Assembly: GCA_902782665.1 (NCBI GenBank)
Contig: CACZOA010000109.1
Coordinates: 62,001-126,000 of the forward strand
Direction: 5' to 3'
DNA: 64,000 bases
Source: an uncultured Bacteroidales bacterium
Lineage (GTDB): Bacteria; Bacteroidota; Bacteroidia; Bacteroidales; Paludibacteraceae
The notes beneath the pieces are model-generated. The model was not told where the DNA came from. It worked only from the letters and a program-made list of their open reading frames with translations, and did not search any database. A program made the translations under genes and the position numbers. Of this stretch, positions 2,570-44,838 are shown piece by piece. Position 1 is the first letter of the stretch, and every line of letters begins with the position of its first letter.

Positions 2570-5383
2570 ATGGCAGACAGTGGATTCATATCTATAAAGG
2601 GTGCACGAGTACACAACCTTAAAGATATAGACATCAAAATACCTCGCAATAAACTGGTGGTGATCACCGGTCTTTCTGGTTCGGGCAAGTCCTCTCTTGC
2701 CTTCGACACTCTCTATGCGGAAGGCCAACGCCGTTATGTGGAGAGTCTTTCGTCGTATGCCCGCCAATTCTTGGGCAGAATGAGCAAACCAGAGGTGGAC
2801 TACATCAAGGGGCTTCCTCCGGCAATCGCTATCGAGCAGAAAGTCAGCACAAGGAATCCTCGCTCCACCGTCGGCACATCAACAGAGATATATGAATATC
2901 TCAAACTTTTGTTCGCCCGCATCGGCCGCACTTTCTCTCCTGTTTCAGGCGAAGAGGTGAAGCGTCATCAAGTGTCGGACATCGTGGATTATATTCTTTC
3001 GTTTGAAGACGGTACAAAAGGAATGATTCTTTCATCGCTTTCCAAAGATAATCTTGTGGAGACGGTGGAGAAAGCCAAACTGGAAGGTTTTGCGCGCTTG
3101 CTTATAGATGGCAACGTGATCAAGATAACTGACTTCTCTGCAGAGATGGCAAAGAGCTGCAAAGAGGCTTACATTGTTGTGGACAGATATGTGGTGCGTC
3201 ACGACAATGAGACAAAAAACCGTGTGTCCGACTCTGTGCAGACAGCATTATGGCAGGGCGACGGTTCTTCTTGCCAAATATTGGTTTACACTCCTGATGG
3301 AGAGACGTTGAAGCAGTTCAGCACAAAATTTGAGGCTGACGGAATATCTTTCGACGAGCCAACCGAGCTGATGTTCAGTTTCAACTCGCCATACGGAGCA
3401 TGCCCAGTCTGTGAAGGATTCGGACGTGTGGTAGGCATTGATGAAGACCTTGTCGTGCCAGACAAAACATTGTCGGTATATCAAGGAGCCGTGATATGCT
3501 GGCGTGGAGAAAAGATGGGAGAATGGCTACAGGATTTCATTTTCCACGCAGAAGCGATCAAATTTCCAATACATAAGCCATATTTCCAGCTGACAACAGA
3601 AGAAAAGAACAAGCTATGGCATGGCACTCAGCTCACTCAAGGAATCGATGACTTCTTCAAGTTCATCGAGTCGCAACAATATAAGATCCAATACCGTGTG
3701 ATGCTTGCCCGCTATCGTGGCAAAACGATCTGCCCTAAATGCGGTGGCACACGGTTGAAGGAGAACGCGTCATGGGTGAAGGTGGCAGGAAAAAGCATCA
3801 CCGAATTGGTGGATATGCCAGTGTCGGAATTGAAAGTGTTCTTCGACAATCTACAGCTCACTGAACAAGACCAGGCAATCGCCAAGCGTCTGTTGATCGA
3901 AATCAAAAACCGTTTGACATTCTTGGTAGACGTGGGGCTTGGCTACCTGACTCTGAACCGTCTATCCAACTCCCTTTCCGGAGGTGAGAGCCAACGTATC
4001 AACCTTGTGACATCATTGGGTAGCAGTCTCGTAGGCTCACTATACATCCTTGACGAGCCAAGTATAGGTCTGCACAGTCGCGACACAGAACGATTAGTGT
4101 CAGTGTTACGCAGACTACAGAAACTTGGCAACACTGTGGTTGTGGTAGAGCACGACGAAGAAATCATGCGTGCGGCCGACTATATAATAGATATCGGTCC
4201 AGAATCTGGACGCAACGGAGGTAAAGTAGTGTTTGAGGGATCTCCTGAAGACGCGAAAAAAGCCAAGCAGCAAGAGGGACTACACAGCTACACTATAGAT
4301 TATCTTAACGGAGTGGAGAAAATACCAGTGCCGGAATTCCGTCGCCCATGGAACAACTATATCGAGGTCAAAGGAGCATTGCAAAATAATCTGAAAGGCT
4401 TCGACGTGAAGTTTCCACTCAACGTGATGACTGTTGTGACTGGCCCGAGTGGATCAGGAAAATCATCACTTGTGAGAGATATATTCTATCTTTCACTAAA
4501 GAGGATATTGGATGAGTCAGAAGAGAAGCCTGGTTTGCATTCAGCTGTCACTGGAGCCACAGACTTGATCAAGAATGTGAATTTTGTGGACCAGAATCCG
4601 ATTGGAAAATCATCACGATCAAATCCTGTGACGTACGTCAAAGCTTACGATGAGATCCGCAAACTGTTTGCTGACCAACAACTATCCAAGCAGATGGGTT
4701 ACCGCAGTGCTCATTTCTCATTCAACACAGAAGGAGGTCGATGCGACGAGTGCCAGGGAGAAGGAACAACGACAATAGAGATGCAGTTTATGGCAGACTT
4801 GGTATTGCCATGTGAAAGCTGTAAAGGAATGCGTTTCAAGCAAGACATTCTGGAAGTCCGCTACCGTGGCAAGAACATCTACGACGTGCTAGAAATGACC
4901 ATCAACCAAGCTGTGGAATTCTTCTCAGAGAAGATGGAGTCGACAGAGAAGAAGATAGTCAAGAGACTGAAATCATTGCAGGATGTCGGACTTGGCTATG
5001 TCAAACTTGGACAATCATCGTCAACATTGTCGGGAGGAGAGAGCCAACGTGTGAAATTGGCAGCTATCCTGGCAGAAGAGAAGACACAACCAACAATCTT
5101 CATCTTCGACGAGCCAACCACAGGACTTCATTTCCACGATATCAAGACACTGTTAAAAGCATTCAACGCATTGATTGAGAAAGGACATACCGTCGTCATC
5201 ATCGAACATAACATGGATGTGATCAAATGTGCGGATCATGTGATAGATATCGGTCCAGACGGAGGAGATAAGGGAGGAGAACTTGTGTTTGCAGGCACAC
5301 CTGAAGAGCTTATAAAAAATGAAAAATCATTCACTGCAAAATGCTTGAAAGCAAAATTTGCAAACGATGGACTGATTTTTTAA
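2570..5383 (+). CDS. uvrA: Excinuclease ABC subunit A
   Basis: A 937-residue UvrA of full family length, the damage-sensing ATPase of nucleotide excision repair. It has two ABC ATPase modules: Walker [10 protein letters not shown] at 34-42 and GPSGSGKSS near 625, with an LSGGESQR signature in each half (near 468 and 820). The zinc modules are visible as CPVC near 277, CPKC near 388, and CDEC near 725 with CESC near 748. The DEPS/DEPT Walker B strands follow each signature. It begins 7 bp after the phosphatase gene. No uvrB or uvrC is in the window. Confidence 0.97.
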
Positions 5384-40617: not shown

Positions 40618-41781
40618 TTATTTTGCTGTCATCAGCTTTTCTTCAGTATACAAAACGACATCTTTTATTACGAGTTTTTGTATGGCAGAGATAAAAGTTT
40701 CCATTGCTTTGTAGTCGAGATTACCGTTTTTTACGGGAAGATACATTTTAAAGCCTTGACTTTTAGAACTGCGTAATTTGTGTCCATACGAGTATTTTCC
40801 TTCAAGCGATTTACCTACAGCTGTAGCAAAAAAAAGCATTTGTTCTTTTGTATATTCCTTTTGATCATTCCAATATGCTCCTGTATCATCTCCCAAGCCA
40901 TAATCAAAACTACGATAAAATGTATTACCAAAGATATCTACAGTAAGTGAATTTCCAGGAAAAGATGCCACAGGATTTGAAATATAATTTACAACGCCTG
41001 TGTTTGTAATTCCAGACATCACAAATGGAATTGAGCCAGATTTTTGATCTTCTTTCTTCAACCGTCTACCTTGCTCAATGTGGTTGAAAATCTCATCATA
41101 TCTGAATTTCTGCCATTCAAGCGAATCAAAGGTGTTTAGTGCATTTTGTTCCTCGTCTGTCAATGTATAGTCTTGCAATCCTGTAACAACAAGGTACGAT
41201 TTTAGTTTACGTACACGCTCCTCTTCAAGTTCACGTATAAAAGACTCCATAAAATCAAAATCGATTTCGTTGTTTTCGGTAATGGGAAGATGAATAATCG
41301 TGCTGTTCATCGCGTCACGGTTGAACTTGTGTGCATAATCATATCCTGCATTTACCGTTGCAACTCTACACGCAGAAATAATGAACATGGCAATAGATTC
41401 GTCGAACGGCTCAATCTTCGGGACAAAATGCTGAATATGCTGATAGCCAATAAAATCATCTTTTTGATAATACATTGTATCAGCGCCAAGCGTCGTATCA
41501 GAACAAGAAATTGTATTTCCCTTGTTATTCGCTTTAAGATTTGAAAATCCCATTACACCATTGTCTGTTGATGAATTTGAAACAAGAGGCACTTTTCCAC
41601 CGTCAGATAAAATCTGATCATTTGTGAATTTATACCATTTCGTCGGATTTATCTCAAACAAATCCCCAAGCCTGAATTTTCCCCACTTGACCGCTTGTAG
41701 CTTTTCGCCAAGTGGGGAATCTATTTTCCCAAGCCGTCTTCCCCGTCTGTTTGTTTTTTCAAAAGATTTGACACTTCCCAA
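40618..41781 (-). CDS. Restriction specificity (S) subunit frame, probably the -1 extension of the upstream gene
   Basis: This frame encodes two target-recognition domains. TRD1 opens [14 protein letters not shown] and TRD2 opens [14 protein letters not shown]; each is followed by a helical spacer ([19 protein letters not shown] and the C-terminal [13 protein letters not shown]). That is the layout of type I HsdS and BcgIB. The only upstream start is a TTG at 41781, which would make 19 residues that are just an out-of-frame reading of the methylase end; the first ATG is about 90 codons inside TRD1. The frame is best explained as entered by a -1 shift at 41724-41730. If translated alone, the start is unresolved. 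Confidence 0.85.
41679..41730 (-). promoter_or_regulatory. Candidate -1 programmed frameshift site (slippery heptamer plus hairpin)
   Basis: On the minus strand the methylase frame reads TTG GGA AAA TAG. G GGA AAA (41730-41724) is a canonical X XXY YYZ heptamer, immediately followed by the stop. Four bases later begins a perfect 11-bp stem, TTCCCCACTTG (41719-41709) / CAAGTGGGGAA (41689-41679), with a 19-nt loop. After a -1 slip the reading continues ATA GAT TCC CCA into the specificity frame. Confidence 0.65.
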
Positions 41782-43778
41782 GCAAGATAATCCGCAACGG
41801 TTTTCTTGAAGTCCTGTAAAGTCGGCTTTGTGTCCACTGGTGCACTCTGATTCCAGTCTGCCCCGTTTTCTGGATCAATAGTACTTTCGTAATATTCCTT
41901 TTCTGTAAAAATACTCAGTTTGCTTTTGCCAAACCTAACAAGATTTACAACTTCATCATATCGTCCTTTTGCGTTGTCTGTGTCACGAAGATTAATACTT
42001 GCTTTCTTACGGTTGGTTCTTGTGTAACCGTCATTTGAAAAATCAATGAACTTTACAATATCGTCTTTCTGGTGAGCTTCTCCAACACGGAACACATATA
42101 CATTCGTCTGAACACTTGATTTACCGACAAATAAGTCTATCGGCATTTTTATGCTAGCAAGAAGTGTGGAATGTTTCAGAATATTTTTGTTATATTCAAC
42201 AGCTTTTCCGCTTCCTGCACTGTTTTGAATGATAATTGCCGCATATCCCTTTTCCATCATCGAAAGAGCCTTTTCAACGAAAACCATACCGTTACCACTT
42301 GCAGAATATGGAGGATTCAATACAAATGCTGTTGCAGGGAATTTTTCTGCAGTACGAACAAATCCATAGTTTCCGTCAAAATCAGTCAACGAGTTTTTGT
42401 TCAAGATATTGCTACTTCCATCGCCCATCAAAATCATATTTAAAATTGCAAGCATATAAATTGACGGTAAGATTTCCAAACCCAAAAGCTGGTTTGTCTT
42501 TATAAATGCTTCCTTTTTCTTGAATTCTTCAGGACTCTTTATGCTAATCTTTGCGTCATCAATCATAATGTTCATTGCCGCAACCAAAAGACCAGCCGAA
42601 CCTGTGGCAAAATCCCATACATAGCTGTCTTTGTTCACTCTGGCAAGACGTGCCAAAAAAGTTGCAACATAACTCGGTGTCAATACCACATCATTCAGTT
42701 TGTCCTGCGTAAAGCCGAGCCAATTGTACATTTCATTAAAGAGTCTTCCTGTAAAATCCGTAGTCAAACCGATTTTATAATACAATCCCAAATCGTCTAT
42801 TACTTTTGAAAAAACTCTTTTTAATTGACTTTCTCCATTTATCGGTTTGTTGATGTTTTCGTTTGTCAAAAGACCTTCTGAAAAAGTCTGTATGATAAGG
42901 TTCTTTTTGTCCTCTGGAACATTTTTAGCAGTCAAAAAAGAATTGATTTTGCGAAGCATTATGTCACCATCACGCTCACCTTTTTCCTCAGAACATTTCA
43001 AGTCTGATTTTTCCAGTGGTCTTACAGCATTTTCGCCTTTAATGCCGAGGTTAGCTATTATAGAAGCAGCAACAAGATAAATACGAGCAGACTCTCCAAG
43101 TCCACTTTCGTTTTTGTATATATCATTATTGAGTTTCACAAGACTTGAAGAGATTTCCTGCTCACGCTTTTCTATGCTCTTGGTTTTCTCTTCTTCAGTG
43201 AGATTAAGCGATTTTACTTTCTCTATAAATAAATCAAAGTTCTCTTTCTTCAAGAAAGACAAATCTGTATATTTTGCTACTTCCTGACCGTAACCGTAGT
43301 TCTTGCTAGAAACATAATAAACACCGATTTCGCTGTGTATTTTTCCTCCTTCATCTTTGTAGCCAGTAACGCCGATTGAAATTATATCTTCGTAATCCGT
43401 GTAATGCAAAAGAGCGTTTGCATAGTGAACCGCACCGTTAACGGCATAAGAATTTATATTTTTGTAATCGTTTTTATTATCTGCCGTTTTGATTGCGACA
43501 TTGCCGTTTTCGTCAAACTTTACTAGTCTGTCTTTATATCCTTTGTATTCAATGAGAACAGGATAATTCGTACCGTAAGAATCATGCACTAGCAATTTGC
43601 AGTCTGGTCTGTTTCCTCCTGTTCCGCCTTGTTTTGATTTGTATTCGTCCAAAGCCTTGTCAATTGGAGTGTTAAGGCTTTCCTGTTCAAGTTTGTAGTC
43701 AAGTTTGTATGTTTTTAGCCAACCGTTTACTAGGTCAGCAATATTTGGTTCTACTGACTTTTCTTTTTGTTTCGCCAT
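41721..43778 (-). CDS. BcgI-like restriction endonuclease-methyltransferase subunit
   Basis: A 685-residue protein. The N-terminal 200 residues look like a nuclease: PD at 58-59 (NRPDCKLLV) and EYK at 77-79 ([12 protein letters not shown]) form a PD-(D/E)xK pattern. The rest is a gamma-class N6-adenine methyltransferase like HsdM: AdoMet motif DFATGSAG at 389-396, [13 protein letters not shown] near 366-378, and NPPY at 488-491. Fused cleavage and methylation plus a separate or linked specificity part is the BcgI (type IIB/IIG) layout; no HsdR is present. The reading frame ends at a slippery site before the specificity frame. Confidence 0.88.
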
Positions 43779-44134
43779 TGTCTTCTGTTTTTAGGTGCGT
43801 TTGCCATTCCCCTAAAAACGACAGTCAGACCAAGCACAAAAAAGAACGTGGACATTTCCTCATCCACATTCCGGGTGCTTGGCCAAACCCATCCAATCAG
43901 ACAAGGAATGTCCACGCCATACGACGCAGACATTCGCAACTATCATCTGATTGGAATTCCTATGCGGCCAAGCTTTGGAATGATTTCAGAATAGCAGCAA
44001 ACGCTATAATTATAAATATGTCAAGTATCTAAATCTTCTGTTTCTTTTTATCTATAGTTTATTCGTTCAACATTTTTCTGAATTTGTTCAACTTCACCGC
44101 AAAATTAACATATTTCTAGTTTGAAATGAAAATG
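43779..44134. other. Gene-free spacer with a cluster of nested hairpins upstream of the restriction locus
   Basis: No credible gene. Hairpin 1: TTTTTAGG (43788-43795) / CCTAAAAA (43811-43818). Hairpin 2: CCAAGCAC (43830-43837) / GTGCTTGG (43875-43882) enclosing GTGGA/TCCAC (43848-43852, 43863-43867). Hairpin 3: TCCAATCAGA (43892-43901) / TCTGATTGGA (43946-43955), with an inner pair GAATGTC/GACATTC. CGTGGACATT (43847-43856) and AATGTCCACG (43907-43916) give an alternative pairing across hairpins 2 and 3, and GCTTGGCC/GGCCAAGC (43877-43884, 43966-43973) another. The remainder (43990-44134) is AT-rich with two GTTCAAC direct repeats. Confidence 0.75.
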
Positions 44135-44365
44135 TCATTTGCAAATATCATTAGGCAACTTGTATCCGTATTCTAACAAAAGCTCATCAGCAAGATATTC
44201 ATCGCTAAAACAATGCATATCAGCTACGCCATTACTTATCAAGTCGTAAGTTTGCGAATCATAAAATTTTCCCAAAGCATCCTCATACGACAGGTTTGCC
44301 TGCTCAGCAAAAATTTTTATGATGCGTGCATACTTCATCTGTAATATAGCTGGATTGGCTTCCAT
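44135..44365 (-). CDS. DUF3791 protein (second copy)
   Basis: A 76-residue small acidic protein matching DUF3791: MKYARIIKIFAEQANLSYEDAL with helical core, and the YDLISNGVADMHCFSDEYLADELL end. It is the last gene of a three-gene cassette, 2 bp after the DUF3990 gene. DUF3791 genes regularly flank DUF3990 genes and are suspected antitoxin or accessory components. It differs from the first DUF3791 copy in sequence, so the two are not a recent duplication. Confidence 0.85.
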   Translation of the reverse strand: MEANPAILQMKYARIIKIFAEQANLSYEDALGKFYDSQTYDLISNGVADMHCFSDEYLADELLLEYGYKLPNDICK

Positions 44366-44367
44366 AA

Positions 44368-44838
44368 TTATAAAATTTCTGAGGATTGGAAATGTAGAAA
44401 ATTATCTAACACAAACTGTGAAGTAATACAAACCTGATGATTAGGTTTCTTGTATTGCAACTGATTAAGAGCCTGCTCTCGTGTGTATATTCCAGAAAAA
44501 TACAAATCAATTGTGTCAAAAACTTGGTCATCGGCGATTCCTCCCTCTATGACATCATAGGCTTCATGTGACAGATCTTTGCGACATGCTGTTACAAAAT
44601 CAAGCCACTCTCCATCATAGGCAGAAAATATTTTGCGAGTGAACGCAGAACTGGTTTCATCAAACATGAAAGTGTTGAGTACTGCCATTTCTCCTCGTCT
44701 AGTAAATCGTTCTCCGTATCGTTCCGCTTGATTGCGAAGCGAGGTAAGATAAAAGCCCCTGCCAAAATCAAGTCGTGGACGAGAATGCAACAAATCAGGT
44801 TGCTTGATTTCTATTGTTGAAGTATGATACAATATCAT
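44368..44838 (-). CDS. DUF3990 protein, predicted ADP-ribosyltransferase-fold toxin
   Basis: A 156-residue protein of DUF3990, a family placed in the ADP-ribosyltransferase clan. The N-terminus has LYHTS with His5 and RLDFGRGFYLTS with Tyr30, matching the H and Y of the H-Y-[E/D/Q] triad; the third residue may lie in GGIADDQVFD. It sits between two DUF3791 genes, overlapping the first by 4 bp (ATGA). Such a sandwich is common in Bacteroidetes and Firmicutes and is read as a toxin-antitoxin or defence cassette. The target is unknown. Confidence 0.82.
   Translation of the reverse strand: MILYHTSTIEIKQPDLLHSRPRLDFGRGFYLTSLRNQAERYGERFTRRGEMAVLNTFMFDETSSAFTRKIFSAYDGEWLDFVTACRKDLSHEAYDVIEGGIADDQVFDTIDLYFSGIYTREQALNQLQYKKPNHQVCITSQFVLDNFLHFQSSEIL

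Follow-up and report, generated by a model that had tools for sequence, protein, structure and literature searches.

The junction between the restriction-modification (RM) gene and the specificity (S) frame of the window, by which we mean the whole 64,000-nucleotide stretch of DNA analysed here, is very probably a programmed −1 ribosomal frameshift site, from which both RM and an RM-S fusion would be made in a 2RM:1S role; that frameshifting occurs, its rate and the assembly role are what we infer from the sequences. The signal appears to follow the three-part design of bacterial dnaX: a Shine-Dalgarno-like (SD-like) sequence, a slippery heptamer and a stem-loop. Ribosomes that keep their frame would stop at the end of RM and give RM alone, and those that slip would enter the S frame and give an RM-S chain of about 1053 residues. 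With two target-recognition domains (TRDs) per S, each needing an RM partner, RM and RM-S translated from one mRNA would assemble as 2RM:1S with S always fused. The first-pass annotation had proposed a programmed −1 frameshift joining RM to S, and the comparative evidence supports this proposal. The case rests on in-phase heptamers of efficient classes, which are present at 100 of the 103 unique junctions and at 138 of 60,770 codons in the RM genes, together with an open −1 frame, a stem that appears to covary, an SD-like element, a 0-frame stop that moves and the frequent lack of a start codon for S.

In the window, the RM gene (nuclease plus N6-adenine methylase) is a 685-residue ORF in the 0 frame of the minus strand (41721..43778). 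Its 3' end reads ...GGC TTG GGA AAA TAG, with the TAG stop at 41723..41721. The slippery heptamer G GGA AAA occupies positions 41724..41730 of the same strand, is in phase with the RM frame (X XXY YYZ) and directly abuts the stop, exactly as had been claimed. A −1 slip at this point leads into the frame that starts with I-D-S-P-L-G-E-K, also as previously described, and 368 codons are open there. This S frame (40618..41724, minus strand, stop at 40620..40618) contains two Methylase_S stretches according to Pfam. The stem-loop is located at 41679..41719 of the minus strand, and its first pair is 4 nt past the heptamer. The perfect 11-bp stem reported earlier is present, and RNA folding extends it by a G-U and a C-G pair to 13 bp (arms 41719..41707 and 41691..41679), which leaves a loop of 15 nt. 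The folding energy of a 46-nt piece is −22.4 kcal/mol, and none of 200 shuffled sequences was as stable (z −5.6). For an 81-nt piece, one of 200 shuffles was as stable (z −2.9). The SD-like pentamer GGGGA (41740..41744, minus strand) is a third element, beyond the heptamer and stem of the first-pass annotation. It begins 14 nt before the heptamer and has an anti-SD energy of −5.7 kcal/mol. A known RNA family at the junction was rejected as Rfam gave no match at E up to 1 within 41500..44200.

Relatives were collected by a scan with the RM protein, using peptide patterns that all lie within RM and leave out the junction. From genome contigs the 80 best of 154 relatives were kept, three relatives came from viral contigs, and the others were from plasmids, phages, E. 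coli and further genomes. We dropped the window itself (L001 and L114), members of other families (L003, L004 and L104), a partial match (L087), a locus at the same place as L098 (L106) and a contig that ends before the junction (L019), which left 111 rows. Three loci with RM and S in frame (L043, L050 and L063) and two in which S has its own ATG (L091 and L092) were set apart, leaving 106, and removal of the duplicates L093, L112 and L117 gave 103 unique loci. L119-L123 are outside these counts. The junction was placed by hand in L042, L048 and L109, and in L051 and L118 one of two in-phase candidates was chosen.

At identities to the window of about 45% or more, RM and S lie in two frames at 106 loci (103 unique) and are fused in frame at three, and the two-frame arrangement extends down to members at about 45%. 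The comparison of homologous loci, which the first-pass annotation had suggested, shows that the two-frame loci keep the heptamer, the frame relation and the stem with few exceptions. An uninterrupted fused gene, which would have spoken against a frameshift, was found only in the three in-frame cases versus the 103 two-frame loci. The other adverse case, a separate S gene with a normal start, is not the general rule at or above about 45% identity, but it does occur at about 40% and below. In L091 and L092 (about 40% identical, on plasmids of Ligilactobacillus and Lactobacillus), S starts at an ATG of its own and overlaps RM by 8 nt; in L104 (31%) S also has its own ATG, and in L124 (27%) the S gene overlaps RM as annotated.

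The phylum is on record for 75 of the 103 loci, and 12 phyla are named among them. Many of the loci are metagenome-assembled, and the same arrangement is found in the isolates Ruminococcus bicirculans and Acinetobacter venetianus, in complete E. coli chromosomes and in a complete Acinetobacter plasmid. The family is carried by a phage, E. coli prophage-like regions, a plasmid and viral contigs. Of 300 genomes of the window's own taxonomic family, 14 were positive at E up to 1e-40, including the window and the distant L104. With the RM of L002 as a query, 9 of 393 genomes of the window's order were positive, again including the window. In a phylum-wide set of 395 genomes, the window's own copy was the only one found at E up to 1e-40. 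In L098/L106 (G428:C28), a frame break near residue 470 divides RM itself, and this copy looks broken.

Where the frame changes, an in-phase X_XXY_YYZ heptamer is present in the window and at the 100 junctions mentioned above. GGGAAAA is found in 74 of the 103 loci, GGGAAAG in 17, AAATTTT and AAAAAAA in four each and AAAAAAG in one, and the heptamer of the remaining three is degenerate. The family switches between slippery types, and all 100 canonical heptamers belong to either the V_VV.A_AA.R or the H_HH.U_UU.Y class, both of which are among the efficient heptamer classes of an E. coli study (PMC4066793). The same study places GGGAAAG and AAAAAAG among the three best heptamers in the presence of stimulators, and GGGAAAA is missing from its list of under-represented motifs that exceed 0.10% without a stimulator (PMC4066793). 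At the three junctions with degenerate heptamers (GGGACAA in L042, GGAAAAG in L048 and GGATTTT in L109), the stem is stable and the −1 frame is open.

Over the 17 codons that follow the heptamer, the −1 frame is free of stops in all 103 loci, whereas a stop is present in the 0 frame in all 103 and in the +1 frame in 96. The heptamer keeps its place at the junction and the 0-frame stop shifts relative to it: the distance between them is 0 nt in 81 loci, 3 nt in 17, 12 nt in one, 15 nt in one and 24 nt in three. The frame break carries no long simple-sequence repeat of the kind that marks phase-variable R-M systems. The longest run at the junctions is A7, and 91 of the 103 have GGGAAAA or GGGAAAG.

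When the register of the downstream stem-loop was searched (spacings of 3-8 nt), a stem of at least 9 bp was found in 102 of 103 loci and one of 6 bp in L074, and the best spacing was mostly 4-6 nt (95/103). We compared each stem with same-size windows from the RM and S genes of the same locus (up to 94 each). In 66 of the 103 loci the stem was more stable than every window tried and in 81 it ranked in the top 2%, and in the other 22 more than 2% of the windows were equally stable.

Covariation was analysed in 83 of the 103 loci, i.e. those with distinct ungapped sequences and the same stem register, and 88 same-register sequences were used for pair counts. In the 83 sequences, 98.5% of the stem cells were paired, compared to 93.0% after shuffling and 34.6-48.0% when the arms were slid. 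Both sides were changed in 60 cells, whereas the shuffled sets averaged 17.3 and none of 500 shuffles reached 60. The number of pairs that vary on both sides (4 of 12) was, however, no greater than in the shuffles (mean 3.7; 358 of 500). The clearest covarying pair joins a synonymous third base of a Leu codon to the first base of a Lys/Glu codon (UA 47, CG 26, UG 12, GC 2, AG 1 and CA 0; n = 88), with a Fisher probability of 5e-13 if relatedness is ignored. On a tree of 98 rows, built by a quick method and with long branches flagged, the two sides of this pair change 12 and 14 times. Among eight independent pairs of sequences, 4.6 differ in the same way, none in the opposite way and 3.4 show no difference (median p 0.0625). 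For the three further pairs examined with the tree, changes are too few to tell. Hence, the tree-corrected covariation comes from the Leu-Lys/Glu pair alone and is suggestive only.

The stem appears, from the alignments, to covary within the family and to be wholly different in its distant members, including the clade at about 46% identity. In L002, the predicted stem consists of CCCTCGTTTG paired with CAAGCGGGGG and stands beside A AAT TTT. The stem of L101 has 11 bp and a 7-nt loop, unlike that of the window, and in E. coli the stem CTCCCG/CGGGAG stands beside A AAA AAG.

An SD-like pentamer, scored as any of seven pentamers of our choice, was found within 24 nt upstream of the heptamer in 83 of 103 loci, as opposed to 449 of 7210 control windows. 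It mostly starts at −11 to −17 relative to the heptamer. The mean anti-SD energy is −7.7 kcal/mol at the 103 junctions and −2.5 kcal/mol in the control windows, so that the GGGGA of the window is weaker than the family mean. By the motif list, the pentamer is absent in 20 of the 103 loci, and in the seven Pseudomonadota loci the anti-SD energy is weak on average (−2.6). Glu codons at the SD-like site are GAG in 77 cases and GAA in 18, while elsewhere in RM they number 398 and 1152, respectively. This codon choice points to selection on the RNA, although the residues at the site are often acidic. In the E. coli study, SD sequences were searched 6-17 nt upstream since they are stimulatory there in experiments (PMC4066793). 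An element is found in this range in the window as well, albeit a weaker one.

The first-pass annotation had also stated that S lacks a credible start. For the window this did not wholly hold, as a TTG is present in the S frame 19 codons before the junction (ORF 40618..41781), but no such start is conserved in the family. An ATG, GTG or TTG upstream of the junction in the S frame is found in only 27 of 103 unique loci. A Trp codon marks where the S domain begins. Between the previous in-frame stop and this codon, ATG, GTG and TTG are all lacking in 42 of 103 loci, and ATG is lacking in 79. The codon just past the slip point is ATA in 57 loci, GTA in 16, ATG in eight, ATT in five, ATC in two and some other codon in 15. 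A start codon of any kind is therefore absent at the slip point in 31 loci, e.g. those with GTA.

These counts bear most directly on translational coupling, in which S would be reinitiated near the RM stop in the style of EcoKI hsdM-hsdS and the heptamer would be incidental. We consider this improbable, and reinitiation as the general mode is rejected on the start-codon counts and the SD spacing. The distance from the end of the SD-like pentamer to the slip-point codon has a median of 15 nt (10-19 nt, 83 loci), which is far for initiation, the usual SD-to-start spacing being 5-9 nt. Coupling would also need the stop to stay near the start, but the stop is up to 24 nt away while the heptamer stays, and it would leave both the in-phase slippery heptamers and the covarying stem unexplained. 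It does have precedents. In EcoKI, M and S likewise lie in different frames, and their translation is described as coupled across a 1-nt overlap in a text that contains no "ribosom-" word (PMC3510504). The outgroups L091, L092 and L104 have an overlapping ATG for S, as L124 has an overlapping S gene by annotation, and within the family the S-frame ATG overlaps a TGA stop in 8 of 103 loci. Furthermore, ATA, ATT and ATC, which occupy the slip point in 64 of 103, can be rare starts, so that weak initiation there is compatible with codon identity, and an AUA 7 nt downstream has been reported to support SD-driven initiation at a low level (PMC4066793).

An alternative raised with the original proposal was that an ancestral fused RM-S gene had lost one A, or that the sequence contains an error. 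In-frame fusions do exist (L043, L050 and L063), and a few S frames are broken. However, the same frame relation recurs in 103 unique loci, isolates and complete E. coli chromosomes included, and S is intact with two TRDs in 81 of them. We give this explanation practically no weight, and decay or sequencing error is rejected as a general cause. A very slight chance is left for transcriptional slippage in the A run, which would produce a mixed mRNA as in Thermus dnaX. Slippage requires neither a downstream stem nor an upstream SD, and yet both are conserved here. Four loci do have a run of A7, and slippage at nine A has been reported for Thermus dnaX, but the GGGAAAA or GGGAAAG of most junctions is shorter than the homopolymers of at least 8 that are usual for slippage (PMC3711429).

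As to the enzyme itself, the window system is best described, from sequence comparison and structure prediction, as a putative BcgI/BsaXI-like RM with a two-TRD S. This identity relies on the N6_Mtase domain found by Pfam in the 685-residue RM, the match to the PADLOC model REase_MTase_IIG (E 3.3e-241), a set of invariant residues and the predicted-structure match. D59, E77, K79 and the NPPY motif (488-491) are invariant in 44 aligned sequences, and D59/E77/K79 form what we take to be the PD-(D/E)xK pattern. The nuclease assignment is based on conserved residues and a fold match, and there is no Pfam nuclease match in the window. The predicted structure of RM (mean pLDDT 83, pTM 0.72) resembles Type I M subunits and the Type IIB BsaXI RM in Foldseek (BsaXI 8w0p, E 2.4e-13). 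TM-scores normalized by the query length are moderate (2okc 0.44, BsaXI 0.37), and the rmsd of 21.7 to BsaXI means that the domain positions differ. A phmmer search of the window RM against the PDB gave a single weak match to an M subunit, and NCBIfam gave just one match, to MADS2 and far under the cut-off. No HsdR-type ORF, i.e. an ATP-dependent motor, was seen by eye among the ORFs at 36-48 kb of the window.

The nuclease and the N6 methylase thus share one chain, as in Type IIB (BcgI-like) enzymes. The S subunit is different: in BcgI and BsaXI it is separate, whereas here no S start is conserved, which makes the system a variant and not a standard two-subunit member of Type IIB. The nuclease, methylase and TRD sequences are intact. 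BcgI has an RM to S ratio of 2RM:1S (PMC3874165) and BsaXI is (RM)2S (PMC11997821). Frameshifting would, we infer, provide both free RM and RM-S in this Type IIB 2RM:1S ratio.

The number of TRDs was examined with half-domain models made from the same sequences. Two TRDs, as in Type IIB, were found in all 81 complete frameshift-read S frames (324-547 residues), and the result was the same when the models were crossed, with the N-half model on residues 200 onwards and the C-half model on residues 5-195 (81/81 both ways). Six uncut frames shorter than 300 residues were set aside, as were 16 that run off the end of their sequence. With Pfam alone, 15 two-frame S frames were searched: 13 showed two Methylase_S stretches, and L066 and L107 showed one each. 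In contrast, each of the in-frame fusions (L043 and L050, which are 95% alike, and L063) has a single TRD, which means that each RM already has its TRD. The predicted structure of the L043 fusion has a mean pLDDT of 68 and a pTM of 0.48. The link between the TRD number and the frameshift is correlative and draws on two fused lineages at most, of which L063 may be decaying. In L063 (4001-7173), the in-frame fusion of RM to TRD1 lies at a run of A8; a second frame break precedes TRD2, with a TTG overlapping a TGA, beside repeated LEAERIEE units.

We lean towards the view that a widespread branch of Type IIB systems encodes its subunit ratio in the mRNA via a dnaX-like −1 frameshift, in which one-TRD members fuse RM and S in frame and two-TRD members keep the slip. 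If true, restriction would join DNA polymerase III as a case in which architecture is set by programmed frameshifting, and for this branch it would be explained in concrete terms how an enzyme that is fused and has two TRDs keeps two catalytic arms. The frameshift could also be real but regulatory, with a low rate that limits the S-bearing enzyme, for example while a new host becomes methylated. The presence of the family on a phage, in prophage-like regions, on a plasmid and in viral contigs agrees with this, as do the 1-3% frameshift rates by which mobile elements limit a product (PMC3711429). We find such a role unlikely, though well short of implausible: in BcgI-like enzymes both cleavage and methylation need RM and S (PMC3874165), so that limiting RM-S would limit both, and the one-TRD fusions do without a frameshift altogether.

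Among the closest known frameshift systems, E. coli dnaX (tau/gamma) also has an SD-like sequence, an A_AAA_AAG heptamer and a hairpin. Its frameshifting of about 50% is said to fit the complex (PMC3711429). The dnaX slip yields the shorter product, however, whereas the RM/S slip would yield the longer one and fuse a second subunit, and the RM/S family has a wider heptamer set in a different gene. IS3/IS911 elements likewise have two overlapping ORFs, a −1 slip, stimulators and the same heptamer classes (PMC4066793), but their product is a transposase, and the expected rate and purpose differ. The restriction enzymes BcgI and BsaXI likewise combine a PD-(D/E)xK-type nuclease-N6 methylase with a two-TRD S, and the fold matches that of BsaXI; unlike in these enzymes, S is predicted here to be made as an RM-S frameshift fusion and has no conserved start of its own. 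AloI and CjeI, for which no frameshift is known, carry RM and a two-TRD S in one chain, as would the predicted RM-S, and their existence speaks against the stoichiometry argument. They are single-chain enzymes with a 1RM:2TRD composition in which one TRD is without an RM domain, a situation that has been termed a mystery (PMC3874165). AloI and CjeI are made as a single protein, whereas here free RM is predicted too, and production of RM and RM-S would solve the 1RM:2TRD problem for this system. An engineered M-S fusion of EcoKI gave an active enzyme once R and more M were added (PMC3510504).

The first-pass annotation knew of no −1 frameshift described in a restriction system, and our search of the open-access literature had the same outcome: no report of frameshifting in such a system was found. 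GeneTack clusters may hold the RM/S family unnamed. If real, this frameshift would, as far as the literature found shows, have no described precedent in restriction-modification, and its signal is kept in 103 unique loci.

The phage-borne L089 has matches in 29 of the 5426 complete E. coli genomes; in 22 the match covers at least 80% of the query, and 20 of the best places are at least 99% identical. The neighbouring genes are annotated as phage-like (antiterminator Q, Hok). The seven E. coli loci examined have G GGA AAG (two) or A AAA AAG (five) and a stem in each case, and from the previous stop to codon +20 the S frame of none of them contains an ATG, GTG or TTG. RefSeq treats S as a pseudogene that lacks its N-terminus in two of these loci, and places its start past the junction in four and before it in one. 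A programmed frameshift would thus correct an S annotation that is currently a pseudogene or a misplaced start. The presence of the family in complete E. coli genomes makes the hypothesis testable at once. In L123 (E. coli 2015C-3121), an IS1 is present in the S region (3602-4299), about 110 nt past the RM stop. RefSeq flags the IS1 frameshift as programmed and not the RM/S one, and the S start is annotated past the junction.

The S frames vary in length and composition. In 6 of 103 loci, S is short though uncut. An early end of the S frame is seen in L045, L060, L083 and L086, where S-like sequence resumes in another frame, and in L006, where it is followed by unrelated-looking sequence. The S frame of L058 (3113-4711) has a C-terminal Peptidase_S24-like domain (Pfam, E 2e-12), and S frames of at least 500 codons are also found in L069, L082, L095-L097, L099 and L100, with the tail of L082 looking different. 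Repeat units similar to ELEAER(I/V)AE are present between the TRDs in the S frames of L010, L062 and L063, and may resemble the spacer repeats of EcoR124I. Upstream of RM, a small protein with a GFYL motif, which may be a DUF3990 protein, is encoded both in the window (44368..44838, minus strand) and in L002 (404-904), and the two look similar.
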